Shown: positions 2,715-36,998 of the stretch, one piece after another
Numbering within the stretch: the first letter of the stretch is position 1
Layout: each line of letters begins with the position of its first letter
Assembly (NCBI GenBank): GCA_036489315.1
Contig: DASXFZ010000048.1
Location: forward strand, 1-57,539
Reading direction: 5' to 3'
DNA from: Candidatus Cybelea sp.
Lineage (GTDB): Bacteria > Vulcanimicrobiota > Vulcanimicrobiia > Vulcanimicrobiales > Vulcanimicrobiaceae
Length of the DNA: 57,539 nucleotides
The notes under the pieces: generated by a model
The model's database searches: none
What the model was told of the DNA's origin: nothing
Seen by the model: the letters and a program-made list of their open reading frames with translations, nothing else
Program-made: the position numbers and the translations under genes

Positions 2715-3019
2715 TTTCTGAGGGTTCAGTCGATCTCTAGCCAGCGATCGCAGCGACGGCGCGCTGTGAGCTCTCGCTCCTGACGCGCCGGCGGTAGCCA
2801 AACTTAACAGCCGAATCGAGCCCCTTCAGCGCTTTGCCAAGGTCCAGCGATAGCATTCGCTCCTCGAGTGCTTTGTACGCCGGACGCAGCGCGTCGTGAG
2901 CTCGTCGCCTTGCTCGAACTCGAGGGGACCGCTGAACGGAACGCACACCAGGGCGCGCAGAGCCTTATTGGGCGCGACGGGAATCGGCCCGCGACCCCGG
3001 CATCCGTCTCGCTGAGTTT
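2715..3019. other. Spacer before the integrase; nothing convincing seen
   Basis: These 305 bases have no gene I can support. The plus-strand frame of the integrase stays open for some distance upstream of 3020 (for example RLAEF before the TTG), which suggests that the missing N-terminal arm-binding part of the integrase once lay here and has decayed. Confidence 0.35.
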
Positions 3020-4069
3020 TTGGAACGATGGCTCTCGATGGTCGTCAAGCCGTCGATGCGCACCACGACCTACCGCAGTTACAACATCGATTTCGAGAAG
3101 CACCTCAAGACGTGCCGGATCGCCAATACGGGCCTGCGCGATATCGACGAGGCGCAGATACAGCACCTTTTCGTCACCGAGAACAAAGCTGCGACGCGCA
3201 CGCAGGCGCTAACATTGATCGTCCTGCGCCGCGCGCTCGATCGCGCCGTTCAATGGCAACTTATCGATTCCAACCCGGCGAAAGGCGCGGCGATCCCGCG
3301 ACAAGAGCGGCATCCGCTTTCTCCCGAGGAGGTTCAGCGCTTCCTAACATTCGCAAAGAACGATCCGCTTTTTCACGCTTATTTTCTCGCGTTGAATACC
3401 GGGATGCGGCAGAGCGAGCTGCTTGCTCTACGCTGGGAAGATATCGTCAACGGTACGATCCGTGTGAATCGCGCGCTCGATCCGCACACGTTTAAGGCCC
3501 CAGAACCTAAAACACGCGCCGGCAAACATGCGATCGTCCTCGACGCCAGAGCGCTAGCCATGCTCGAGCCCCACAAAGGCGCGGCAAGCTGCGGCCGGCT
3601 ATACCGGGCCGCTCGTCTTTGTCGATCGATACGGCGGCCACTTGCGGCCGTCGAACTTCAGAGGCGTAGCTTCAAACCGCTTCTAAAAAAGGCAGGGATT
3701 AGCGAGACGATACGCTTCCACGATCATCTCCGGCATACATCCGCAACGCTGATGCTCGCCGCTGGCGTGAATCTAAAGATCGCAAGCGAACGCCTTGGCC
3801 ACGCCAACATCGCGATCACCGGCGACTTCTACCAGCGCGTGAGTACGGATATGCAGCGCGACGTCGCGCGCAAGATGGGAAAACTCCTCACTTTTGACGA
3901 CAAAAAAGTAATAAAAGGCGCTCAGGGTGCGCGTAAAAAGGCGTCAAGCGCGCCGATCGAGGTTTCAATGCGTGAATCAAAAGACAGCACGACCATTGGC
4001 TGGTCTTTGTCTTGGCATAGGGCCGCAATGCAAAGGGTCAATCCAGGCTCCTACGAGTTTGAGGAGTAG
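3020..4069 (+). pseudogene. Tyrosine recombinase/phage integrase, degraded
   Basis: Residues 1-90 resemble the SAM-like core-binding domain (ERWLSMVVKPSMRTTTYRSY). Residues 100-310 form the catalytic domain with the first arginine in GMRQSELLALRWEDI and the tyrosine in ITGDFYQRVS. Three defects are visible. The only start is TTG and the N-terminal arm-binding domain is missing. Between about 3575 and 3675 the natural sequence (GYTGPLVFVDRYGGHLRPSN) sits in another frame, bounded by two compensating indels. The usual HDLRH active-site box reads HDHLRH, with one extra codon. It probably no longer works. It lies within the tRNA-Asn island and was presumably its integrase; a second fragment is at 5716-5936. 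Confidence 0.7.
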
Positions 4070-12092: not shown

Positions 12093-12904
12093 TACGCAAC
12101 CGCCGCCACCAGATCGAAGAACGGCTCGAGATCCTCGGCCGCCACCTCCATGCCGACACCTTTGGTGTGATAGCGGATGTCGTGGAAGTCCATGCCGGCC
12201 GTCATCACTAAATTGTAGCGGCGCGCCGCTTCGCGAAACTCGGCGACGTCGGCGGCGTTGTGCAGCGGGTAGAAAACTTCTAAACCGCGCAGCCCGCGAG
12301 GCGCAAGCTCGTCGATCAGCACTCGATCCTTCAAGCGACCCGGATGGGCGAGCACGGGGAGCCCTCCGGCCTCCGCGATCTTCTCGATGGCATGCTCGGG
12401 AGTCGTGTAGAGCTGCGGAACGTAACCCGGCCGGCCGGCGCCGATTGCCTGTTTGAAGGCCTCGTCGACGCTGCTGACGATCCCCAGGCGCACGAGAGCC
12501 TTGGCCACGTGCGGGCGCCCGATCGAAAGCGCGTCGCCCGATTCGGCTAAAACGTCGTCGAGCGTGATGCCGTAGCCGGCCTTGCGCAGCTGGTCGACCA
12601 TCGTCTCGGCGCGGACGCGGCGCTGATCTTGGTTATACTCCAGCAGTTCGTTAATCGGCGACGGCCCTAGCGGCACGCCGTACCCGAGGACGTGGACCTC
12701 ATTCTCTTTCCAGGTCGTGTTGATCTCGATGCCGACGATCACCCGCGCCCCGGGCGGCGGCGTAAAGTTGCCGTACGCCGCGGTCGTGTCGTGATCGGAT
12801 ATCGAAAAGATCTCCACCCCGCGCTCGCCCATGAAATCGGAGAGCTCCTGGGGGGTGAGGGTTCCATCGCTCATCGTCGAGTGCGAATGGAGGTCAACTC
12901 TCAA
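12092..12904 (-). CDS. PHP-domain metal-dependent phosphoesterase
   Basis: A 270-residue PHP enzyme. Metal-ligand motifs are DLHSHSTMSDG at residues 4-14, ISDHDTTAAYG at about 35-45, a glutamate in VGIEINTTW, VLAHPGR near 195 and GMDFHD near 240. Relatives include RNase AM/YciV-like enzymes that hydrolyse nucleoside 3',5'-bisphosphates and trim RNA 5' ends, which would fit a position next to ymdB, but the substrate cannot be read from sequence. The start is TTG, overlapping the spoVS end by 11 bp, so it is the last gene of the coupled ymdB-spoVS operon. Its stop abuts the foldback element. Confidence 0.9.
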   Translation of the reverse strand: MRVDLHSHSTMSDGTLTPQELSDFMGERGVEIFSISDHDTTAAYGNFTPPPGARVIVGIEINTTWKENEVHVLGYGVPLGPSPINELLEYNQDQRRVRAETMVDQLRKAGYGITLDDVLAESGDALSIGRPHVAKALVRLGIVSSVDEAFKQAIGAGRPGYVPQLYTTPEHAIEKIAEAGGLPVLAHPGRLKDRVLIDELAPRGLRGLEVFYPLHNAADVAEFREAARRYNLVMTAGMDFHDIRYHTKGVGMEVAAEDLEPFFDLVAAVA

Positions 12905-15297: not shown

Positions 15298-17712
15298 ATG
15301 TCCAGATTCATCACGGCGCTCGTCGCCGTTCTCGCGATTTTTTGTTATGCGCTTCCAGCCGCCGCGGCCGTCACCGGATTGGTGCGCGGCACCGTCACGC
15401 TCGACGGAAAGCCGATAGCTCACGCGACCGTTGCCCTGCAAGGCGAAGGGTCGAAGTTCACCACGCAGTCGGGAGCCCGCGGCGAGTACGTCTTTTCGCA
15501 GGTGCCGTTCGGGCAGTACCGGATTACGGCGACGCTCAAGGGCGTTCCCGAACTGCACGTCGAGGTTACGGTCTCCAGCGGCAGCGTTGCCACCGTCAAT
15601 CTGCCGTTCTCGACGCTGCAGCAGATCGCGCAGACCGCTGTGACGGCTCACGCCGGCCTCTCGAACAACCCACCATCGGTCAACCAGATCCTGCGCTCAC
15701 AGATTCAAACTTCGCCGGTGCAGAACAGCCTCGACCAGACGCTGGCGACCCTGCCGGGCGTCGTCCCGTTCTCCTACAACGAACCGGTCATCAACGGATT
15801 TCACGGCGTTACCTATAATATCGACGGCGCGCCGCTGCCGCTGGCCACCACCTCAAACTTTGCCGAGATCGTCGATCCGAAGATCATCGACTCGCTCGAG
15901 CTCTACACCGGTGCGATTCCCGCCGAATACGGCGGCGACCGCATGGGCGGTGTCGTCAACATCATCACGAATCGTCCGACCGACGTTCCGGAAGGGGTTT
16001 ACGGTACGGTCACGGGCGGGATCGGAAATCAGTCGCAGGGCGTCGGCGAACTCGACACGGCCGCCCGGTTCGGATCGAGCGAAATCTTCTTCGACGCGAA
16101 CCTCCAATCGACGGCGCGGGGCCTCGACGCGCCGACGCTTACGCCGATTCACGATAACTCCTCACAGGCCGATCAGTTCTTTCGCTACATCACGCAGTTG
16201 ACACCGCGCAGCACCCTTGCCTTCGACTATTCGAACCAGCTGGCGCAGTTTCAGATTCCGATCAATACCGATCCAAACAATCCCTACGACCCGATCACCA
16301 CGCCGGCCGGCACCGACGACGTTCAGCGCGAGTACGATCGGTTCTCCAACCTAAACTGGACGACTACGTCTAAAGACGGCAACGGAATCGTCCAAGTGAT
16401 TCCGTGGTGGCGCTCGACGCGAATTAACTACGACGGCGATCTCCCCAACGACGTTCTCGGCGTCACTCCAAACTTCAGCGCCGACACGCCGCCGTGCATG
16501 GAGTGTCCTCAGCCGGACGACCCGTCGGGGGAGCTGCACAACGTCGGTCTGCTCTCCAACACTTACGCATCGTATACCGGCTTGCGAGCTTCGGACTTCC
16601 GCGCAACCAAGAAGCACGCATGGAAAGTTGGGTTCGACGTGAATCGCGAGAATCTCGTGGCAAGCCAAGCCTTCGCGTGCTTCTATCAGGAGGGTTGCGG
16701 GGCCACCTCCGGGACGCACGATCAATCGTATTATCTCGTCGCCCCGCCCCAGCAGGCACAAGCCGGGTCGCAGACCGGTATCTACGCACAAGACACCTGG
16801 AATCTCTCGGATTACACGCGCCTCGACTACGGCGTGCGCTACGATCACTCGACGGGTTACACCAGCGGCAACATGTTCAGCCCGCGAATCGGCATCACGC
16901 TGTGGGATGGGCATAAGAATACGTTCCACGCGTTTTATGGGCGCTTTTACGCGGCTCCCCTGCTTGAAGACGTCCGCCAAGACTGCGTCCTCCTTCAGGG
17001 CTGCACCGGCCAGCCGGTCTACGACCTTCAGCCCGAACGGGACGCCTATTTAGAGGCGGGCTGGAGCTATGCTTTCAAGCCGCAGTTTACCGGCTCGATC
17101 AATCTCTTCCGAAAAACCGTCGTGAACATTCTCGATACCACCCAGCTCCTCAACACGCCGCTTTTCGCCGTCTTCAACAATGCCATCGGTATCGACAACG
17201 GCGCGGAACTGCGTCTGCAAGAGCACTTGCCCAACGAGAACCTCTGGTGGTTCACGATGACCTACTCCGGCTCGTACGCGGCCTGCGTTTCGGGCTCGAC
17301 CTTCCTCTTTCCGCCGGGCACAAACGAGCCGGGCGTTCCCTGCGCCGCGCAGCTTTCACCCGAAGATCACGACGAGACGGTGGTCTCGAGTGCAGCGTAC
17401 ACTTGGCGTTTCGGCAACAACCGCGGCTGGTTTACGACGCTGCAAGGAAACTACGGCAGCGGCTTCCCGGTAGCGTTCGAGAATGCCAACGAAAACCTGA
17501 GCGGACGTCTGCCGGCTCACACGACCTTCGACCTCGCCGCGGGCCGCTACCTAACCCCCGGCCGCTCGGGGCAGGATACGGGGCTCGGCATCCAGCTGAT
17601 CATCGATAACGTGCTCAACGATCAATACGTGATCAAGGTCGCAAACGGGTTCAACACGACGCAGATCGCCAACAGCCGCTCTTACATCGTCCGGCTCTCC
17701 GCGCCGTTCTAG
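15298..17712 (+). CDS. TonB-dependent outer-membrane receptor with carboxypeptidase-regulatory-like domain
   Basis: An 804-residue receptor. Signal peptide: MSRFITALVAVLAIFCYALP. Residues 25-100 form a carboxypeptidase-regulatory-like sandwich (GLVRGTVTLDGKPIAHATVA, GEYVFSQVPFGQYRITATL). The plug follows (NQILRSQIQTSPVQNSLDQT, GAIPAEYGGDRMGGVVNIIT), then a barrel of about 550 residues ending SYIVRLSAPF with a terminal phenylalanine as usual. It should import a ligand through the outer membrane using TonB energy; the ligand is unknown (the domain order is common in oligosaccharide and siderophore receptors). AAGGAG precedes the ATG at the right distance. A long hairpin lies just beyond its stop. 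No TonB or ExbBD genes are nearby. Confidence 0.9.
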   Translation: MSRFITALVAVLAIFCYALPAAAAVTGLVRGTVTLDGKPIAHATVALQGEGSKFTTQSGARGEYVFSQVPFGQYRITATLKGVPELHVEVTVSSGSVATVNLPFSTLQQIAQTAVTAHAGLSNNPPSVNQILRSQIQTSPVQNSLDQTLATLPGVVPFSYNEPVINGFHGVTYNIDGAPLPLATTSNFAEIVDPKIIDSLELYTGAIPAEYGGDRMGGVVNIITNRPTDVPEGVYGTVTGGIGNQSQGVGELDTAARFGSSEIFFDANLQSTARGLDAPTLTPIHDNSSQADQFFRYITQLTPRSTLAFDYSNQLAQFQIPINTDPNNPYDPITTPAGTDDVQREYDRFSNLNWTTTSKDGNGIVQVIPWWRSTRINYDGDLPNDVLGVTPNFSADTPPCMECPQPDDPSGELHNVGLLSNTYASYTGLRASDFRATKKHAWKVGFDVNRENLVASQAFACFYQEGCGATSGTHDQSYYLVAPPQQAQAGSQTGIYAQDTWNLSDYTRLDYGVRYDHSTGYTSGNMFSPRIGITLWDGHKNTFHAFYGRFYAAPLLEDVRQDCVLLQGCTGQPVYDLQPERDAYLEAGWSYAFKPQFTGSINLFRKTVVNILDTTQLLNTPLFAVFNNAIGIDNGAELRLQEHLPNENLWWFTMTYSGSYAACVSGSTFLFPPGTNEPGVPCAAQLSPEDHDETVVSSAAYTWRFGNNRGWFTTLQGNYGSGFPVAFENANENLSGRLPAHTTFDLAAGRYLTPGRSGQDTGLGIQLIIDNVLNDQYVIKVANGFNTTQIANSRSYIVRLSAPF

Positions 17713-17728: not shown

Positions 17729-17771
17729 GCCTTTGCAGCGCGTGCCTAACCCGCGCACGCGCTGCAAAGGC
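17729..17771. terminator. Perfect 17-bp hairpin after the TonB receptor gene
   Basis: GCCTTTGCAGCGCGTGC (17729-17745) pairs perfectly with 17755-17771 around a nine-base loop (CTAACCCGC). It begins 17 bases after the receptor stop. There is no following T-run, so it is not a classic intrinsic terminator, but it would form a very stable RNA end in either direction. Confidence 0.5.
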
Positions 17772-17911: not shown

Positions 17912-18940
17912 ATGTCTGATTTGGAGCAATCAAGAATCGTCGTCACGGGCGGCGCCGGTCTAATTGGGAGCGCCTTGATTTGGGCGCTCAATCGTCGCGG
18001 TATCGAGGATATTCTGGTCGTCGATCGCCTCGACTCTTCGGAGAAGTGGAAGCACCTGGTGCCGCTGCGCTTCGCCGATTATCTCGACGCGGACGATTTT
18101 GCCGACCGGATTGCGGCGGCCCAGTCGTTTGGCGACGTCGGGGCGGTCTTCCACCTCGGGGCCTGTTCCTCGACAACCGAGAGCGACGCCGGCTACCTGC
18201 TGCGTAACAACTACGAGTACACGAAGAACCTGGCGCATTGGGCGGTGGAGAACCGCGCGCGCTTCGTCTACGCCTCGTCGGCCGCAACGTACGGCAGCGT
18301 CGAGGCGCTCCTTTCCGACGAAGCCGATCTGCACACGCTTCGTCCGCTCAACGCCTACGGCTATTCGAAGCACCTCTTCGACCTCTACGCGCAGCGCACG
18401 CATCTAGCCGATCGCATCTGCGGCCTGAAGTACTTCAACGTCTTCGGCCCCAACGAAGACCACAAGGGCGAGATGCGCAGCATCGTTCAGAAGGCGTACG
18501 AGCAGATCCAGGCGGCCGGCAGCGTCCGGCTCTTCAAGAGCCACCGTCCCGAGTATCGCGACGGCGAGCAGCAGCGCGACTTCATCTACGTTAAAGATGT
18601 GGTCGACATGACGCTGCATCTGGCGGAAGCCGACGCCGCCGGACTGTACAACGTCGGCTCCGGAACGCCGCACACGTGGCTGCACCTGGTGCGCCCGATC
18701 TTCCATGCGCTCGAACTGCCCGAGCGGATCGAGTTCATCGAGATGCCCCAGCATCTGCGCGGCAAGTATCAATACTACACGTGCGCGAACGTTGAGCGTC
18801 TGCGCGCGACCGGCTACGACCGGCCGGTGACGCCGCTTGCCGACGCGGTGACCGATTACGTTACCAACTATCTCGTCAAGGGGCGGCCGCTGGAAATCTC
18901 CGACGCGCCGGTCGCCGCACCGCTCAAAGCTCCATCGTAG
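17912..18940 (+). CDS. hldD: ADP-L-glycero-D-manno-heptose 6-epimerase
   Basis: A 342-residue extended short-chain dehydrogenase. NADP-binding loop VVTGGAGLIGSALI is at residues 10-23, the HLGACSSTTE motif typical of this epimerase near residue 82, the catalytic YGYSK near 149, and KYFNVFGPNEDHKGEM near 175. It converts ADP-D-glycero- to ADP-L-glycero-manno-heptose for the inner core of LPS, which argues for an outer membrane. Other heptose genes (hldE, gmhA/B) are not in the window. The 199-bp leader is GC-rich and contains a strong hairpin near its start. An 18951-19679 gene follows after 10 bp. Confidence 0.95.
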   Translation: MSDLEQSRIVVTGGAGLIGSALIWALNRRGIEDILVVDRLDSSEKWKHLVPLRFADYLDADDFADRIAAAQSFGDVGAVFHLGACSSTTESDAGYLLRNNYEYTKNLAHWAVENRARFVYASSAATYGSVEALLSDEADLHTLRPLNAYGYSKHLFDLYAQRTHLADRICGLKYFNVFGPNEDHKGEMRSIVQKAYEQIQAAGSVRLFKSHRPEYRDGEQQRDFIYVKDVVDMTLHLAEADAAGLYNVGSGTPHTWLHLVRPIFHALELPERIEFIEMPQHLRGKYQYYTCANVERLRATGYDRPVTPLADAVTDYVTNYLVKGRPLEISDAPVAAPLKAPS

Positions 18941-19689: not shown

Positions 19690-20262
19690 TTAGCGCAGCA
19701 CCTTTTTTAGCCCGTTCTGCAGATCGTTGTACGATATCTCGCCGTCGGCGAGATATCGTATTTTTTTGTCGGAGCCGATGACTGCGAACGTTGGGAAGCC
19801 GCCCTGGAGATAGAGGTTTGCGACGTTAAGGATCGGATCGTAGCCGACCGGATACTTGACGTCGAAGCGCTTCACCCAATCGAGCACGTCGCGCTGCGAG
19901 GACGACGAGGTACCGTCCATCGCAGTATCGCTGCCGGAGACGGCGACGAAGTCGACACGCTTGTGGTAGGCGGCATAAAGACGGTCGACGACCGACGTCA
20001 TCCGCTGGCAGTGCGGGCACCAGGTCGCGAAGACTTCGAGAAAGACCGGTTTTTGCGTTTTTCTCAGGTCGAAGAGGCCGGCGGTCGTCGACACTTCGAA
20101 TGGCGGGGCCGTCTGGTTGAGCGCTGCCTTGCCGACAATCGGGGCCTGCGAGGCCGTCTGGACCGATCCGTGCGACGATCCGGCGTTGTAGACGAGCAGC
20201 GCCGCGACGGCGATCACGACGACGATCGCCGCGGTCGCCAGAAGAATCGGACGGCGCGTCAT
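19690..20262 (-). CDS. Membrane-anchored thioredoxin/TlpA-like protein
   Basis: A 190-residue protein: N-terminal membrane anchor (PILLATAAIVVVIAVAALLV), then a thioredoxin fold with active site ATWCPHCQRM near residue 90 and the cis-proline strand GGFPTFAVIG near 155. It probably acts on disulfides outside the cytoplasmic membrane, for example in cytochrome or copper-protein assembly. The ATG at 20262 overlaps the stop of the MauE-like gene (ATGA), so the two are coupled. Its codons for IRYLADGEISYND double as a rho-independent terminator on the opposite strand. A longer frame reading into 21096 is open but lacks any homology and was rejected. Confidence 0.85.
   Translation of the reverse strand: MTRRPILLATAAIVVVIAVAALLVYNAGSSHGSVQTASQAPIVGKAALNQTAPPFEVSTTAGLFDLRKTQKPVFLEVFATWCPHCQRMTSVVDRLYAAYHKRVDFVAVSGSDTAMDGTSSSSQRDVLDWVKRFDVKYPVGYDPILNVANLYLQGGFPTFAVIGSDKKIRYLADGEISYNDLQNGLKKVLR
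19730..19767 (+). terminator. Intrinsic terminator inside the convergent thioredoxin gene
   Basis: TACGATATCTCGCC (19730-19743) pairs perfectly with GGCGAGATATCGTA (19747-19760) around a three-base loop, followed immediately by seven T (19761-19767) on the plus strand. It starts 50 bases after the stop of the plus-strand gene ending at 19679, so it should end the hldD operon. It lies within the last 26 codons of the minus-strand thioredoxin. Confidence 0.85.
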
Positions 20263-20696
20263 GCGGCGCGCAGCTTTCGATCGAGCGCAAGCGGACCGGG
20301 CGCGCCGAAGGCGATGAAGATCGCCGCCGCGCCGAACAGGCAATCGAACGCGACGTGCGGCCAATCCGCAACCGCAGCATCGCCGGGCCCAAAGCAGCCG
20401 CAGTTCGCCGGAAGGTGACGGAGAACGGCCGACGCGACCGCGGCCGCGTAAACGAAGAACTGAGCCGCGACGATCCAGGCGGTGACACGGGTAAAGAGCC
20501 CGGCGACCAAATAGGCGCCGAGCAGGATCTCGATAAAAGGCAAGGCCAGCGCGAGCGGCCCCACGACACCCGCAGGCAGCAGGCGAAAGCCCGCGATGCT
20601 GGCCGCCAGATTCGCAGCGTGACCGACCTTCAGCAGCCCGGCAGCGAGCAGCATTCCGCCCACAAGCAGGCGGAGCACCAGAACCGCAGCGTTCAC
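20259..20696 (-). CDS. MauE/DoxX-like membrane protein
   Basis: A 145-residue protein with four predicted helices: VLVLRLLVGGMLLAAGLLK at residue 5, FRLLPAGVVGPLALALPFIE at 36, GAYLVAGLF to FVYAAAVASAV at 60-90, and FDCLFGAAAIFIAFG at 115. A cysteine pair in NCGCFGPGD lies near residue 100. MauE-type proteins are thought to pass reducing equivalents for disulfide formation in periplasmic enzymes. The GTG start lies 59 bp from the divergent SCO gene. The stop overlaps the thioredoxin ATG, giving a membrane electron carrier plus thioredoxin pair. Confidence 0.8.
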   Translation of the reverse strand: MNAAVLVLRLLVGGMLLAAGLLKVGHAANLAASIAGFRLLPAGVVGPLALALPFIEILLGAYLVAGLFTRVTAWIVAAQFFVYAAAVASAVLRHLPANCGCFGPGDAAVADWPHVAFDCLFGAAAIFIAFGAPGPLALDRKLRAA

Positions 20697-22861: not shown

Positions 22862-23328
22862 ATCAGCTTCACCCGACGCCTGAAGAGATCGTCGATTACC
22901 TGCACGGGGAGCTTTCGCCGGCGCGCGATGCTGCGATTTACGCGCATCTCGCCGGCTGCGCCGACTGTTCCGAGATTCGCGATTCCGAGCTGTCGCTCAC
23001 CGAGATGCTGAAGGCATACGCACTCGCCGACGAGCGCGAGCTCCCCGCTGGCATCGTCGCAACGATTCGCAGCACGGTGCACGATAAGCGCCCCTCGCTC
23101 TGGGAGCAGTTGAGCGCGGTCTTCCGGCCGGCCGTCGCCGTTCCGGTTGCGATCGCGATCGCCGCCTTCATCTATTTCGGCTTTAGGCTCGCGCACGGGC
23201 CCGCGGCCGCGTCGACGATCGATGCGTCGTACTACGTCGAGAGCCACGCGGCGCTCAGCAGCACGACGCCGCTCTCTCAAGACGAACCCATCCCGGGGGC
23301 ATTGAGGGACGATGATCAATCGCATTAA
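22858..23328 (+). CDS. Zinc-binding anti-sigma factor
   Basis: A 156-residue protein with the ZAS motif IYAHLAGCADCSE (HX3CX2C) near residues 30-42, a linker, one transmembrane helix (AVAVPVAIAIAAFIYFGF) near residue 98, and a short outer domain. It should hold the upstream ECF sigma factor at the membrane until a signal arrives. The ATG at 22858 overlaps the sigma stop by 4 bp, as is normal for such pairs. The frame is open further upstream inside the sigma gene, but that part has no homology. It overlaps the RseB-like gene by 17 bp. Confidence 0.9.
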   Translation: MNQLHPTPEEIVDYLHGELSPARDAAIYAHLAGCADCSEIRDSELSLTEMLKAYALADERELPAGIVATIRSTVHDKRPSLWEQLSAVFRPAVAVPVAIAIAAFIYFGFRLAHGPAAASTIDASYYVESHAALSSTTPLSQDEPIPGALRDDDQSH

Positions 23329-24352
23329 GCCAGGCGCCCTCGCGCTTGCGCTGGCGATCGGAAGCCTTGCGCCGGCGGGTGCCGGGACGGCGAAGACGCC
23401 CGCTTCGGCGCCGTTCGCGCTGCTCTCCGACGTTCTCTCGGCTCCGTCGAAGATCTCGTACACCGGCGTCGTCGAGTCGGTGCGCATCGGCAGCCACGGC
23501 TCGGAGGCGTCGGTCTACCGAGTCGAACATCGCGCTCCCGAGATGACGCGCAAAGTTTTTAGCGCGCCCCCGGAGCTCTTCGGCGATTCGGAGATCGCAA
23601 AGGGGAACCTCAAGTTTTCGATCGACGCCAAACACCACCGCATCGTCGAGGCCAAGAACGCGGCGACGCTCGAAGACCGCCGCTCCATCGGCGACAATGA
23701 GGCGCTGATCCGCGCGAACTACCGGCCGGCCCGCGTCGGGACGGAAAGCTTCGACGGACGTCCGGTCGTCGACGAGCTGCTGGTCAATAAGTACACCAAT
23801 CGCACCACGATGTTCGTGCGCGTCGACCGCGAGACAAAGATCGTGCTCGACAAGCAAGAGTTCGGCCCGAAGGGTGCGCTCGTCAGCGAGGTCCGTCTAG
23901 AACAAGTGCGCTACGGGCCCGTCCCCGCCACCGATTTCTCGCTGCCGAAAGGCTACGCAGTCGTTGGCGGTCCGAAGCTGCAGGAGGTTTCGAGCGACGC
24001 CGATCGTTTGATTCACGATGCCGGCTTTGCGGCGCGCAAACCCGGCACGCTTCCTGAGGGCTTCGCACCGCTTTCCGGCGACGTCGTCGATATGCACGGG
24101 GCGCGCACCGTTCAGCTCCTCTACTCCGACGGCCTGCGCACCGTCTCGCTCTTCGAGAGCGCGACCGCCGTTGCTCCCAACGTGGCGCCGTTTCATCCCC
24201 AGTCGGTGACCCTCGGCGGCCGCACCGGGCAATACGCAGAAGACGGCAGCATGGACTTGCTGACGTGGAGTGACGGAACGCTGTACTACACGCTCGTTGG
24301 CGAGCTCGGAATGACCGAGCTCGCCAATATCGCAGGGACGATTACGCCCTAA
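23312..24352 (+). CDS. RseB/MucB-like sigma-factor regulatory protein
   Basis: A 346-residue exported protein. Signal peptide IKPGALALALAIGSLAPAG; N-terminal LolA-like half (PSKISYTGVVESVRIGSHGS, LRANYRP-like RANYRPARVG, TTMFVRVDRETKIVLDKQEF), then a smaller C-terminal domain (LPEGFAPLSGDVVDMHGART, GTLYYTLVGELGMTELANIA). RseB proteins sit in the periplasm, sense lipid or LPS signals and shield the anti-sigma factor from proteolysis. It is the last gene of the sigma, anti-sigma, RseB-like operon. Its end is only 12 bp from that of a convergent TonB receptor. Confidence 0.8.
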   Translation: MINRIKPGALALALAIGSLAPAGAGTAKTPASAPFALLSDVLSAPSKISYTGVVESVRIGSHGSEASVYRVEHRAPEMTRKVFSAPPELFGDSEIAKGNLKFSIDAKHHRIVEAKNAATLEDRRSIGDNEALIRANYRPARVGTESFDGRPVVDELLVNKYTNRTTMFVRVDRETKIVLDKQEFGPKGALVSEVRLEQVRYGPVPATDFSLPKGYAVVGGPKLQEVSSDADRLIHDAGFAARKPGTLPEGFAPLSGDVVDMHGARTVQLLYSDGLRTVSLFESATAVAPNVAPFHPQSVTLGGRTGQYAEDGSMDLLTWSDGTLYYTLVGELGMTELANIAGTITP

Positions 24353-24364
24353 CCCCTGCGGCTC

Positions 24365-27300
24365 TTAGAGCTTGATGTTCGCCATGAAGTAGGCTTGGAA
24401 CGGAGCCTTAACCGAGTTGTTGAGGCCCGAAACCAAATATGGTCCAAGGTTCGGTTCGTACGGGTAGAGCAGAAACTGCTGGATCTTCGTCGCGGCGTTC
24501 TTTCCGTTCGTAGCCGAGACGCTGCCCGGAGGGTTGAACGCGTTGCCGACCGGCGGAATCAGGCCGCCGCCGACGACGCCGTACGAGCAGATGTTGCTGT
24601 CGGTGTAGGTCCACTGTTTGCTCGTGCCGCCCCAACACGTGTTGACGATGTTCGCCAGGACCGCGGTCAGCGTGATCCGCGGCGAGACGTCGTACTCCGC
24701 TTGGAAGTTGAACATGAACTCGTTGGGCTGCGTGAACGAGCCGAGGTCGTCGAAGACCCCGGTAAACGGATCGGGAATCACGAGTGCGGCCGGGCAGGTA
24801 GATGCGTCGTAGCGATGGCTGCCGACCAGCGGTGAGCAGCCGGCATCGGCGGGATCGATGCCGGGCGTCGTCTCCGGCGCGCCGTACTTGCCGCCGCCCT
24901 GGAACTGCAGCGAGGGCGTCACCGCGAACTTATCGTGGCGGTAGTTGAGCACCAAGCTCCCGACGTACGGTGAGTTAAACGCGTTCACCGAGGAGCCGAT
25001 GCCGGCCGGGAAGATGTCGTAGGGTGCGAAGTTCTGGCCCGGATCGAGGAAGTTTTGGGCCGGTGCATTCCAGTACGGATTGATGACCGCGCCGGGTTTG
25101 TTGCACGGCGAGGGGCTACCCATAAAATAGCACTTCGCGGCGGGGATGCCGCCCGAGCCGATCGTTCCACACAGCGGGATGCCGAACTGCGAGCGGCCGG
25201 TGAAGGAACCACCCTTGGCGCAGGCCTTTGTGTAGGCATTGTAATTCGAGATCGTCGCGTTGATCGGCGAGATGATCGTCGTTCCGTTGGAAAGGACGCC
25301 GTACTTCGTGTACGAGTTCGTGTAGGCGAAGGAGAGCAGTCCCGAAATGCCGTTGCGCGAGAAGTCACCTTTTTGCGCCTGGAATTCGAAGCCTTCGCTG
25401 CGCTGGCTGCCGACATTGAGGCCGGAGATGAATCCGGTCTGCTGATTTAAGAAGAAGTTCTGTACCTGGTCCTGCGTCTGGCGCAAAAACGGCGTGATTT
25501 TAAAGGACCAGTCGGTGCCCTTGAGATGCTGCTCGAGCGAGACGTCATAGTTCAGCGAGGTGGGCGGCTCCACCGGGAGGCCCGGCGACGTGCGTCCGTA
25601 GGGATACAGGTTCGGGCCGAGCAGCGTGAAGGGCAGATCGTTCTGCAGGGTGTTGTAGATCTCGTATGCCGTGTTCGGAGCTTCCGTATAGCGGCCGAAC
25701 GAGGCGCGGATCACCGTGTTTGGACTGACCGTATAGGTACCGCTGAAACGCGGCTGCCACTCGTTAAAGGTAAAGCTTTGGTAGGCTTGGTTTACGAGCG
25801 CCGCGGCGTGGAATCCGCTCGGGCAAGCCGAGGTCGGGGCGAGCCCCAAATCGGCCTTGTCCTCCGGAACACCCGTCAGAGCGCTTACGCACGTGTCGCG
25901 ATTGTAGGCGTTGTACCAGAACTGTCGCGCGATGCCGCCGTTGCCGTTGATGTCGCCGTTGAGCCCGTCGAAGGTAAAGCTGTCTAAGCGGAGGCCGAGG
26001 TTGATCAAGACCTTGTCGTTGGGACGGAACTGATCGGTCAGCGAGGCCGAGCCGAACTTCGGCTGCACGTTGTTATACGTCGCATACTGTCCGTTCTCTG
26101 CCATAAGGTACGTGCAGGCCGTCTTCCCGGGAACGCGCGGGTCGACGCAGTTCGACGGTAGCGCCCCCGGCGCGTTGTTCTTCACGTTGGGCTCGTAGAG
26201 TTGATCCCAGGTAACGACTTGAGCCTGCCCTTCGCCCGGATTACAGGTAACCGGCTCGTTTGGGCCCGTCTTCGGCGCCGGCCCGTAGCAGTAACCGCCA
26301 TATGGATCGGCGGCGTTGACCACGACCGCAGCGTTCGTGCGGTTCGGACCGCCGAAGGCCGGGAAGTTGTTGAACATCTGCGTGTTGTTGTCGCGGATCG
26401 TGCTCGCCGTAACGTACGAACCCTGGATCGTCAGAAGGTTCTGTTCGTTGAGCTGATCCTGAAACTCCGCGCTGATGCCGCGCGTGTGCGAGCTGAGCTC
26501 GTAGTCCGGTGCGGTCGGACAGAGATAGAAGAACGAGGTACACTGAGGGCCGACGAGATCCCACGTGCTGTAGTACGTGTAGCCGTAGATACGGAAGAAC
26601 GCCGTCGAGCCGAAGTTCTTCGTGTACTGCAGCTTCACGATCTCTTGCTGGTTCTGCGAAGAATCGCGGTTGGAGTCGGGGACGAATCCGTACGAGCTGC
26701 CGGTCGCGAAATCCGACCACGGACGGTTCTGACTGCTGAACGGATAGAAGTACTTCGAGGTGCACGACGGTCCGATCCCCGTCAATCCGGATTGGCTGAA
26801 CGTCTTCCCGACCTGCGTCATACAGTTCCAGGAAAGGCCGTCAATCCACGGCGGTGTCTCGCCGGCGTGCAGGTTCGGTGCAAGACCAAGGGTCGTGATC
26901 GGGTTGATCGCGCCCCAGCACTGCGCACCGGTAAGGTTCGACGAGCATTGCGGCGAGGCAATGTCGTTGTTCGAGCTATAGAACGAGTTCGAAAGATAGG
27001 AGCTGTCCCAAAGGATCTGCACGTCGTCGCGGCCCGCGTCGTTTTTATGCGGGATGCCGATGTGAATGTTGGCGACGACGTCGCGCGAGGCGATCTGCGC
27101 GAAGTTCATCCAGTTGAACGGCCCTAAGAAGTAGCCGCCTTCCGCGTACTGGCCGGCGTTGGGCGTGTTCAGCGGAGCGAGCGGCGCACCAAGCCAGTTG
27201 TCGTAGTTGGAGCCGTTCTGATCGTTGACGTAGCGGAAGGCCTGGTTGTACCCGGCGACGCCGAAGTAGTACGAAAGGTTCCGGTCGGGCGTCGCGCCGC

Positions 27301-28120
27301 CGGCTTCGATCATCGCCCGATGGTAGAACGTCGGCGTGCCGATGCCCAGCTGTCCGTCAGCCGAGCCGGGGAAGGTACCGGTGCGGATGACCTGGTTGAT
27401 GTACCCCGCGAGGCCTTGGCCTTCGGAGTTCGCCGGGTTCGCGCCGGTGTAAACCTGAACTTCGGCGTTTCCGAGCGACGAGGCCGCGCCCGATGGATAA
27501 TTGTCGAACGAGCGGTTGACGGGAACGCCGTCGAATTCATAACCTACTTGGTCGAAGTCGCCGCCGCGAATGTGAACGGTGTCGTAGTATCCGCTTTGGT
27601 TCGGGACGACATAGGCTCCCGGTACGGTCGAGATTGCCGAGTAGGCCGAGTTGAGGTTACCACCGCCGCCGAGGGCGGATGCCGCGTGCTGTGTCGACGC
27701 GTTGATCGAGTAGATGTCGGCGGTTGTTCCGGATTTCACCAGCGAGCCCGCCGCAGCGGCGGTTACGCGGCCGATCGTTTTCAACGCCTTTGGCAGGCTC
27801 ACGCGAACCGTCTGGACCGTGTCGGCAAAAACGATCTGACCCGGCACGCTTTCGGATTGATACTGGCTTTTATCGGCGGTGATCGTGTACGTGTCCGGCG
27901 CGAGCGTCAAAAACCCGAAGTGGCCGGACGCGTCGGTCGTCGAGGTCGCAGTTTGCGACGGACTGCTAGCCGTTACGCGGGCACCGGCAATCGGAGCCCC
28001 GCTATCGCTATCGACGACGGTCCCGGTGATACCACCGGTGACGCCGGCGACTGCCGACGGGCCTTGAGCAATGAAGGTGAGGAAGAGAACCAGAGAGGTG
28101 GCGAGGCGCATCGATCGCAT
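24365..28120 (-). CDS. Large TonB-dependent receptor with carboxypeptidase-regulatory-like domain
   Basis: A 1251-residue outer-membrane protein, of the size of the large Oar/SusC-like class. Signal peptide: MRLATSLVLFLTFIAQGPS. A regulatory-like domain covers residues 25-100 (GTVVDSDSGAPIAGARVTAS, GHFGFLTLAPDTYTITADK). The plug is at 120-260 (YYDTVHIRGGDFDQVGYEFD, GLAGYINQVIRTG), and a long barrel with many cysteine-containing extracellular loops ends PFQAYFMANIKL. GGAGG lies before the ATG. The ligand is unknown; such proteins often bind peptides or polysaccharides. It faces the sigma operon end-to-end with a 12-bp gap and may be under its control, which is speculation. Confidence 0.9.
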   Translation of the reverse strand: MRSMRLATSLVLFLTFIAQGPSAVAGVTGGITGTVVDSDSGAPIAGARVTASSPSQTATSTTDASGHFGFLTLAPDTYTITADKSQYQSESVPGQIVFADTVQTVRVSLPKALKTIGRVTAAAAGSLVKSGTTADIYSINASTQHAASALGGGGNLNSAYSAISTVPGAYVVPNQSGYYDTVHIRGGDFDQVGYEFDGVPVNRSFDNYPSGAASSLGNAEVQVYTGANPANSEGQGLAGYINQVIRTGTFPGSADGQLGIGTPTFYHRAMIEAGGATPDRNLSYYFGVAGYNQAFRYVNDQNGSNYDNWLGAPLAPLNTPNAGQYAEGGYFLGPFNWMNFAQIASRDVVANIHIGIPHKNDAGRDDVQILWDSSYLSNSFYSSNNDIASPQCSSNLTGAQCWGAINPITTLGLAPNLHAGETPPWIDGLSWNCMTQVGKTFSQSGLTGIGPSCTSKYFYPFSSQNRPWSDFATGSSYGFVPDSNRDSSQNQQEIVKLQYTKNFGSTAFFRIYGYTYYSTWDLVGPQCTSFFYLCPTAPDYELSSHTRGISAEFQDQLNEQNLLTIQGSYVTASTIRDNNTQMFNNFPAFGGPNRTNAAVVVNAADPYGGYCYGPAPKTGPNEPVTCNPGEGQAQVVTWDQLYEPNVKNNAPGALPSNCVDPRVPGKTACTYLMAENGQYATYNNVQPKFGSASLTDQFRPNDKVLINLGLRLDSFTFDGLNGDINGNGGIARQFWYNAYNRDTCVSALTGVPEDKADLGLAPTSACPSGFHAAALVNQAYQSFTFNEWQPRFSGTYTVSPNTVIRASFGRYTEAPNTAYEIYNTLQNDLPFTLLGPNLYPYGRTSPGLPVEPPTSLNYDVSLEQHLKGTDWSFKITPFLRQTQDQVQNFFLNQQTGFISGLNVGSQRSEGFEFQAQKGDFSRNGISGLLSFAYTNSYTKYGVLSNGTTIISPINATISNYNAYTKACAKGGSFTGRSQFGIPLCGTIGSGGIPAAKCYFMGSPSPCNKPGAVINPYWNAPAQNFLDPGQNFAPYDIFPAGIGSSVNAFNSPYVGSLVLNYRHDKFAVTPSLQFQGGGKYGAPETTPGIDPADAGCSPLVGSHRYDASTCPAALVIPDPFTGVFDDLGSFTQPNEFMFNFQAEYDVSPRITLTAVLANIVNTCWGGTSKQWTYTDSNICSYGVVGGGLIPPVGNAFNPPGSVSATNGKNAATKIQQFLLYPYEPNLGPYLVSGLNNSVKAPFQAYFMANIKL

Positions 28121-34541: not shown

Positions 34542-35582
34542 ATGCGTGGCGCGGCGGCGCTAACCCTCGCACTCGCCGGCTGCACGGCGGCACCGAGCGT
34601 TGCCCCTCTCGCGACTTTCGTCCCGCAGGCGCAGAGGGTGAACCCGGGTCTGCGCACGCACGCAATCATCGGCTTCAGCGTAGACACCCCCAAACGCGCG
34701 GCAACGGCCGCCGGCGAAGGCGTGAACACCACGATCCTCTACGGCGGCGCGCCATCGCGGCACAGCGCGCTCGAGACGGCGCTGCGGGCGCATTCGATCG
34801 ATGTGGTCGACGGCGCAATTTCGTCGCTGCTGTTCTATTGGGAGTGCCACCGAACGCATACCGTCAAGCCCCCGCCGGGCAGCTACGCGTACAACGACTA
34901 CTGCCGCACCGACGAGAACCCGCGCATCAAAGACGAGGCCGTCGTCCTGCGCGACGCCGGCGCACTGCTCGCCACCGATGCGCGACGCGACTACGTCACC
35001 GGTTACTGGGTGCTCGACGACTGGCCGGGTTGGGATCCAGGCAGCGGACGCGAGCTGTTGCGGAAGATTCACGCGCTGATCGTCGTCAAAACGCCCGGGC
35101 GCGCGGCGATCTGCGGCTTCGGCGCTGGCATCGCGCGGCCGGGGCGCGTCGACTGGGATCCGGGTACGGCCGCAAACTACTCCGACGGCGGCTGCGACGT
35201 GGTCGGCTGGTACAACTACTCGCCGTTCGGCCGGCGGCATCCGTCGTTGGGTAAGCGGTTGGACTGGAGCATGAAGGCGTTACTTCCGGCGATGCAGCGA
35301 AGCCTCACGAAGTACGGTTGGAAGAGTGCGAAGACGCCGCTGTACGGCATCGGTCAGGCGTGGGGCGGATCGTACGAGAAGCGCTACTATCAGCCCGGGC
35401 TCACGCGCGCGGAGATGCGCGACCAGGCCAACGCCTTCTGCGCGTTCGGTGCAGCCTACATCGGGTGGTACGCGTGGGATGACAGCGGTTTCGAAACAAA
35501 AACCGAGACGCCGAATAGCTCGAAAGCGGTTGCCGATGGAATCGCGGCAGGCATTAGCGCCTGCCGCCATCGCTGGCGGTAG
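34542..35582 (+). CDS. Lipoprotein of unknown function, glycoside-hydrolase-like layout
   Basis: A 346-residue protein with lipobox LAGC at residues 11-14, so membrane-anchored outside the cytoplasm. The remaining sequence alternates strand and helix segments in a way that recalls a TIM barrel: HAIIGFSVDTPKRA, VNTTILYGGAPS, GYWVLDDWPGWDPGSGRELL, RAAICGFGAG, GCDVVGWYNYSPF and AAYIGWYAWDDSGF. The acidic residues in LDDWPGWDP and AWDDSGF could be catalytic, but no family was recognised. It starts three bases after the M61 peptidase stop, so they form one operon. It ends 12 bp from a convergent pseudogene. Confidence 0.65.
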   Translation: MRGAAALTLALAGCTAAPSVAPLATFVPQAQRVNPGLRTHAIIGFSVDTPKRAATAAGEGVNTTILYGGAPSRHSALETALRAHSIDVVDGAISSLLFYWECHRTHTVKPPPGSYAYNDYCRTDENPRIKDEAVVLRDAGALLATDARRDYVTGYWVLDDWPGWDPGSGRELLRKIHALIVVKTPGRAAICGFGAGIARPGRVDWDPGTAANYSDGGCDVVGWYNYSPFGRRHPSLGKRLDWSMKALLPAMQRSLTKYGWKSAKTPLYGIGQAWGGSYEKRYYQPGLTRAEMRDQANAFCAFGAAYIGWYAWDDSGFETKTETPNSSKAVADGIAAGISACRHRWR

Positions 35583-35594
35583 CAGGTAAAGCGG

Positions 35595-36998
35595 CTACTC
35601 GTCGGTGTCCGGCACGTCGTTTGGGGAGTCGTGGTCGTTGCGGAAGTACTGGGCGTGCAATGGGGCCGGGATCGTCACAAACCGCTTGGGCGCTTGCGCG
35701 AAGTTAAAACAGTCGGAGAGATCGTCGGCGCGCGCATCGGTCGTTCCCATCGACGGCAAGCCGAAGTTCTCTTCGGTGAAGTGGAGGATGCTGCCGAATT
35801 CGTGCTGCGTGTGCGAGATATAACCCGCCTTCGCGTACGGTGAGATCACGAGCAGCGGAACGCGAAAACCGAGTTCGTAGGAATTGTAGAGTGGAGGCTT
35901 CACGTGATCGTACCAGCCGCCCCAGTCATCCCAGACTACAAAGATGACGGTCGACCTCCAGTCCGGAGAGGAGCCGATCGCATTGACGATGGACGCGACC
36001 CACGACGGACCGCTTCCGTTGGTCTTGCCGGCGTGATCCGATGACTTGCCGCTCGGCGTGATCCAAGTAACGTTTGCGAGATGTCCCTCGTTGATGTCAG
36101 TCAATACCTGCGCCGACGGATGGATGACGTTGGTATAGTCGGGTGTGTTCCAGATCGAATGGATCGCGTCGACCGCGTTCCACAGACCTGGGCCGGGGTT
36201 CTGCTGATAGTAATGCCACGTGAGGCCGGCCGTATCGAGTTCGTTCATCAGCGCCGTGCGCGCGAAGCACGGATAGACGCTTTGGTTTTCAGATCCGCTG
36301 GGATCGATCACCGCAACCGTCGAGCCGGCCGGCGAGTCGCAGCCGCCGGCGGCTTTGCCGCCTTTCGCCCGCGGATTCTCGGAGGCGCGGAGATCGGATC
36401 CGTCGGCAATCGCGGAGGTGCCGCTGATCAGGTACTGATGCGCCGGGAAACTCGGTCCCTGATTCGTCTCGAACATCCTATCGGCGAACGTGTAGGCCTG
36501 CGCCATCGTATAGTAGGGCTGCACCTCGTCCTGCGGCACGTAGGCATACGCACGCACGTCGGGACGCGGGCAGGTTGAATGACGATCGCACTCTGAAGAC
36601 CCTCGGCTGAATCCGTTCATGCTGCCGTTGGCATAGTCGACCTTCCAGGCCGTATGCCGGTGGCTCAGATCCTACGGCGCCGTGAGCAGCTCGGGCGCGA
36701 GCGGGACGCTTTGGTTCGCGGCGTTGCGGCCCGCGTGTGCGGTGTCGGCGCCGGGCAAGGCGTTGAAGAGATCGTCGACGCTCCGGTTCTCTTGAATGAT
36801 AATGACGACGTGCGATATTGCGACGCTGCCCAAGTCGATTGGGCGCCGGCCGCTGCGTTCGGCCGCCTGCGGAAGCAGCGGATTGGAGGCTCCCGTCGCA
36901 CCCATACCGCCCGCCGTCGGCGATCCCGCGCACGCGGTCAAGAGCGAGACGCCGGCGAGAAGGCCGAGACTCCATTTGTACTGGCTTGAGATCCGCAT
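35595..36998 (-). pseudogene. Phospholipase C/phosphoesterase-family lipoprotein interrupted by an amber codon
   Basis: From ATG 36998 the frame encodes a lipoprotein leader (lipobox LTAC), then the family start HVVIIIQENRSVDDLFNALP. At 36674-36672 a TAG interrupts LLTAP-stop-DLSHRHTAWKVDY, where relatives have tyrosine (TAPYDLSH). The same frame then runs on to 35595 with VTWITPSGKSSDHA, VWDDWGGWYDHVKPP and VPLLVISPYAKAG, the active-site blocks of PF04185 enzymes. So a single base change splits an otherwise complete 468-codon gene. TAG is an ordinary stop for other genes here, so recoding is unlikely. The downstream part could restart at ATG 36620. Confidence 0.8.

Follow-up and report, generated by a model that had tools for sequence, protein, structure and literature searches.

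How does a transcript end when its last gene runs into the tail of a convergent neighbor? The question arises in a genome of Candidatus Cybelea sp. (3,094,157 bases in 64 contigs, 95% complete), in the window studied here, which is the entire contig C48 (57,539 bases). There, 10 nt separates the stop codons of P0002 (18951 to 19679, plus strand), the final gene of an operon with hldD, and of a convergent gene for a thioredoxin-like protein (19690 to 20262, minus strand). Judging from the sequence, we think it very probable that the hldD-P0002 transcript ends at 19730 to 19767, at a one-way, lineage-specific intrinsic (Rho-independent) terminator carried by silent sites within the convergent gene. 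Since the 10 nt between the stops leaves no intergenic room, the signal would have been built inside the opposite coding sequence (CDS).

The element was characterized by direct sequence reading, folding, a dyad search, and a terminator score. On the plus strand, a perfect 14-bp stem with a 3-nt loop (19744 to 19746) occupies 19730 to 19760 and is followed immediately by seven T residues (T7, the U-tract of the RNA) at 19761 to 19767; an earlier sequence-only reading of this DNA had described the same stem, loop, and T7, and direct reading confirms them. As a dyad, the 31 nt comprise two fully (100%) complementary arms, 19730 to 19744 and 19746 to 19760, separated by 1 nt; they yield 14 Watson-Crick pairs, and an additional G-U pair between 19729 and 19761 is possible in the RNA. 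The stem begins 50 nt past the P0002 stop (19679) on the same strand, and the hairpin and T7 lie wholly within the thioredoxin-like CDS; the coordinates thus agree with the location first given for it, on the antisense strand of that gene and 50 bases past the end of the hldD operon. The plus-strand RNA folded at -24.7 kcal/mol over 56 nt, compared with -12.4 ± 2.4 for shuffled sequences (z = -5.2; 0 of 200 shuffles were as good), and the hairpin alone at -21.9 kcal/mol. The stem, the T7, and the 50-nt spacing together support the terminator anatomy and post-operon position that had been proposed. In the thioredoxin mRNA, from the minus strand, the same hairpin forms with the tail CAACGATC, not U, and the U-tract is present on one strand only. 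Because of that tail, the thioredoxin-like gene would not be terminated by the hairpin. No Rfam family was found between 17000 and 25000. In the mechanism that we propose, RNA polymerase would exit P0002 and continue for 50 nt along the antisense strand of the thioredoxin-like gene; with U7 in the RNA-DNA hybrid, the RNA would form the 14-bp hairpin, and dissociation of the complex would follow near 19767.

Sites were scored with a d'Aubenton Carafa-type formula in our own script, without calibration for this lineage; on this scale, the 19730 to 19767 site scored 41.3 and the window's next best site -0.3, more than 40 units lower. The hairpin after E. coli crr, a known terminator, served as a yardstick and scored 45.2. 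Across 351 kb of the genome (the window plus 20 stretches), 18 sites scored at least 5, and the 19730 site ranked second to one with 45.7. Twelve of the 18 overlap no called gene, the calls being those of a simple codon-score script and not of a standard gene finder, with some starts wrong (P0002 is called from 19026 and hldD from 17975). Several of the genome's other strong sites begin 22 to 35 nt after a stop codon, and the 50-nt spacing is therefore near the usual place.

The hairpin and T-tract also encode K-K-I-R-Y-L-A-D-G-E-I-S-Y, codons 166 to 178, thirteen codons of the thioredoxin-like gene. The sequence-only reading was right that these bases encode protein, but the "ND" in its version falls outside the hairpin and T-tract. 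On the minus strand, the T7 reads AAA AAA A(TA), for Lys166-Lys167-Ile168. Within the stem, codon pairs with codon, namely, CGA (R) with TCG (S), TAT (Y) with ATA (I), CTC (L) with GAG (E), and GCC (A) with GGC (G), the loop being GAC (D); further pairing joins the last two bases of ATA (I) to the first two of TAC (Y). In the genome sample, ATA provides 3.7% of Ile codons, CGA 8.1% of Arg codons, and AAA 30.6% of Lys codons. In the thioredoxin-like gene, ATA occurs only at codons 168 and 176, both Ile residues of the hairpin, and Lys166-Lys167 is written AAA AAA where near relatives mostly have AAG AAG. The gene's G+C content at third codon positions is ordinary (0.79 versus a mean of 0.78). 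Given the protein and the genome's codon usage, the exact probability of 14 of 14 pairs is 7.45e-7, and with the A7 run (AAA AAA) it is 7.4e-8; random codon choice for the same protein gives on average 7 to 8 of 14 pairs. Not one of 100,601 synonymous recodings covering the last 60 codons reached a score of 30 (or 41); the best had 26.7. Thus, the hairpin with its T7 is far beyond chance given the protein.

The family record is less favorable. Of 99 family genomes searched, 98 had some match to the thioredoxin-like protein, and the best 30 loci, including the query, were studied. A convergent P0002 homologue was present in 28 of the 29 orthologue loci (gap, -11 to +13 nt at 25 loci and 486 nt at the other 3) and was not found in one; across the family loci, the two genes often overlap by 4 nt. 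At the homologous positions, the 29 orthologues have 4 to 9 of the 14 pairs (mean, 5.8) and A at 0 to 6 of the 7 positions (mean, 3.8). Stem conservation in relatives had been set beforehand as a check, and it failed: all 29 lack the full pairing. Of the dual constraint that the sequence-only reading had seen, the codon choice at both Ile residues and at AAA AAA stands, but a lasting constraint does not. The closest orthologue by protein, in genome G020, is 69% identical and has 9 of 14 pairs, its codons AAG AAG ATT CGG TAT CTC GAC GAC GGC GAG ATT GCC TAC forming an imperfect palindrome. No nearer relative was found in the genome contig collection (best, 44%) or in the viral contig collection. 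Because the nearest orthologue is only 69% identical, the missing pairing shows a young or lineage-specific element, not a nonworking one. From these comparisons, the terminator would be either a gain in this lineage or a loss in all others, and gain is the simpler. It may have arisen mainly through synonymous changes (two AAG to AAA, two Ile codons to ATA, and Arg to CGA) plus one or two residue changes, starting from the motif Y-L-x-x-G-E-I, whose codons TAT CTC ... GAG ATA are already partly self-complementary; we infer both this direction of change and selection for it.

Several observations weigh against an intrinsic terminator at this site. The stem base beside the U-tract is A-U rich, with only 2 G-C among the eight pairs TACGATAT/ATATCGTA; a G-C-rich base next to the U-tract is a common tendency of intrinsic terminators and not a requirement. 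The score, as stated above, is uncalibrated for this lineage. The protein motif is predisposed, as 4.7% of the recodings scored at least 0 and 9.8% contained T7; since none reached 30, a weak terminator here would be unremarkable and the observed one is remarkable. None of the 29 orthologues has a terminator-like site scoring at least 0 on the P0002 strand within 350 nt (best, -11.5), and because 25 of the 29 share the tight arrangement without the hairpin, that arrangement does not need it. Finally, Rho is encoded in the genome (626.5 bits) and could end the transcript without a hairpin.

This last point leads to an alternative that we consider unlikely, in which the hairpin is a 3'-end stabilizer: Rho or another factor would terminate downstream, and exonucleases would trim the RNA back to the stem. 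The presence of Rho would permit it, and the tails of most other post-stop hairpins in the genome sample are poor in U, so a U-tract may often be dispensable for hairpin function here. However, the seven T residues stand immediately after this stem, which is the hallmark of intrinsic termination.

We give little credence to the idea that the structure is a chance by-product without function, its conserved Y-L-x-x-G-E-[IV] codons, partly self-complementary, having drifted to full complementarity. The 4 to 9 pairs of the relatives and the 7 to 8 expected from random codons suit such a background, but the probability of all 14 pairs with A7 is the 7.4e-8 given above, and the direction and post-stop distance suit a terminator. 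Just as little credence goes to template switching at an imperfect palindrome, which would have made the perfect arms in one step, with a terminator role arising later or never. The mechanism is described in PMC8794818, and the G020 sequence, with its 9 of 14 pairs, is a ready quasi-palindrome. However, differences from near orthologues lie in both arms, the A7 is outside the arms and could not have been copied from the other arm, and the explanation accounts for the origin of the palindrome, not for its placement.

It is very improbable that the thioredoxin gene carries a programmed -1 frameshift signal here (A7 does precede a strong hairpin on the minus-strand RNA) or that the 31-bp palindrome, a perfect dyad, is a DNA operator. 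Frameshift signals usually lie 5 to 9 nt from their stem, but this stem begins right where the A7 run ends; a C precedes AAA AAA, and relatives are without A7. A repeat and operator search that allowed up to 3 mismatches found a single occurrence of the palindrome in the genome, and it is located at a gene end.

We also examined other convergent gene ends for signals like the predicted terminator at 19730. In 993,506 bases of the genome (32%), there are 69 convergent junctions with gaps of -75 to 40 nt; these give 138 ends, and 275 control regions were taken deeper in the same genes. Perfect stems of at least 9 bp lay in the opposite coding end at 5 of 138 ends versus 1 of 275 controls, leaving 133 ends without one, in a test that was framed after the window had been viewed and in which the window holds three of the five ends. 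For stems of at least 11 bp, the counts were 4 of 138 and 0 of 275 (Fisher P = 0.012), and with the query excluded the Fisher P values were 0.044 (9 bp) and 0.036 (11 bp). Within 100 nt, the 138 ends together had four scored terminators in the opposite CDS (41.3, 8.3, 5.5, and 2.8, the 19730 site included) versus one in the next 400 nt; these four ends and the four with a stem of at least 11 bp overlap only partly. The three nonquery coding-end stems of at least 11 bp have 0 to 1 T in the 8 tail bases and are therefore not canonical terminators.

The second coding-end hairpin of the window, a perfect 13-bp stem at 24297 to 24327 on the minus strand, has no U-tract; it lies in the last 60 nt of the plus-strand CDS 23312 to 24352, which is MucB/RseB-C-like by a weak Pfam match below the cutoff, and 37 nt past the stop of a convergent minus-strand TonB-receptor-like gene (24365 to 28111). 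The third and weaker case, a perfect 9-bp stem at 35544 to 35567 on the minus strand, is likewise without a U-tract and lies inside the plus-strand CDS 34542 to 35582, 27 nt past the stop of a convergent minus-strand gene (35595 to 36557). At junction L143 (stops at 3002 and 3018), both coding ends carry signals, a U-tract terminator at 2967 to 2984 and an 11-bp stem at 3048 to 3077.

In the genome plus two relatives, the density of stems of at least 11 bp was 0.255 per kb for convergent coding ends (5 stems), 0.0098 per kb for the remaining coding sequence (15 stems), and 0.465 per kb for noncoding sequence just past a stop (19 stems). In the later sets G000_B, G019, and G010, 2 such stems were seen versus 0.17 expected (sum of the per-set figures), one of them only partly coding (a 15-bp stem in G010, hairpin 12612 to 12646, with the CDS ending at 12630); for stems of at least 9 bp in G000_B alone, 1 was seen versus 0.62 expected. 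The relatives G019 (54 ends) and G010 (62 ends) had neither a scored terminator inside the opposite CDS nor a strict coding-end stem of at least 11 bp. In 250 kb of E. coli MG1655 with 36 annotated convergent junctions (9 with a gap under 20 nt), no opposite CDS contained a scored terminator, the exception being an overlap of 3 of the 45 hairpin bases at one junction. The effect is limited to a few percent of ends. A general rule for coding ends was rejected: the mean folding z, from 60 recodings per region with independent codons, was -0.42 ± 0.10 at the ends versus -0.23 and -0.22 in two control regions, with no clear excess. It is possible, though doubtful, that the lineage places transcript-end hairpins about 20 to 50 nt past the upstream stop even inside an opposite gene and that silent sites there carry a selected noncoding signal. 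As most of the coding-end hairpins have no U-tract, they would point to U-independent ending or stabilizing of transcripts.

Post-stop stems outside convergent coding ends were noted as well. A perfect 17-bp stem with a 9-nt loop lies at 17729 to 17771, 16 nt past the stop of a TonB-receptor-like gene (15298 to 17712), and folds at -37 kcal/mol over 61 nt without a U-tract. Elsewhere in the genome, perfect stems of 17, 16, and 15 bp without a U-tract lie 19 to 37 nt past stops (L135:14054-14095, L143:7829-7864, and L157:6018-6050). In a genome list of 26 post-stop stem rows of at least 10 bp, with both strands counted, 4 have at least 5 T among the 8 bases that follow the stem. Such U-poor post-stop stems are possible U-independent 3' ends. 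Separately, among 18 genomes of the genus, 7 each carry a single copy of the hairpin AAGGCTCGCT...AGCGAGCCTT, and 6 of these share one 5-nt loop; the copies include L203:5111-5141 and L178:6415-6445. In L203, its left arm reads, by eye, as the final codons (AEGSLW-stop) of a small membrane-protein-like open reading frame, whose own stop codon the stem may span.

As for the genes themselves, hldD (17912 to 18940, plus strand; ADP-glyceromanno-heptose 6-epimerase) lies 10 nt upstream of P0002, and the identity originally proposed for it is upheld by TIGR02197 (387.7 bits versus a cutoff of 274.6). P0002 (242 amino acids) has no Pfam or NCBIfam match. The thioredoxin-like protein (190 amino acids) is of the Redoxin/AhpC-TSA type with a WCPHC motif, and its gene sits behind a MauE/DoxX-like gene (20259 to 20696).

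The locus offers a countable example of noncoding information forced into synonymous sites, in which thirteen codons double as the neighbor's predicted terminator. If convergent-end signals are selected, neutrality does not hold for synonymous sites there, such signals would escape terminator finders limited to intergenic regions, and recoding a gene could cause read-through from its neighbor. The codon test is applicable to any genome; an open-access literature search found no paper applying one to terminators embedded in convergent coding ends.

Among known systems, the 19730 element resembles an intrinsic terminator in its stable 14-bp stem, 3-nt loop, immediate T7, and position soon after an operon's last stop and differs in its A-U-rich stem base. 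3' ends without a U-tract are among the subjects of PMC13289151. Bidirectional terminators between convergent genes are reported for Z. mobilis and E. coli in PMC7566282, which also classifies terminators within coding regions, and for R. prowazekii in PMC3027695. The convergent junction and a hairpin common to both strands are shared with these, whereas here the U-tract is on one strand only and the element is inside a CDS rather than intergenic; because no A-tract precedes the stem, there is no signal for the thioredoxin-like gene. TransTermHP, as outlined in PMC1852404, scores terminator structures inside genes and searches tail-to-tail regions to 500 nt past the stop. Termination sites inside neighboring coding sequence are among the topics reviewed in PMC7154746, and like 3' untranslated regions that end there, the hldD-P0002 transcript would end in the convergent gene, with a predicted antisense overlap of about 80 nt; unlike them, the signal is readable from sequence and codon choice, and the overlap is short. 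The kind of signal is thus ordinary and known, its placement is uncommon, and this instance is new.
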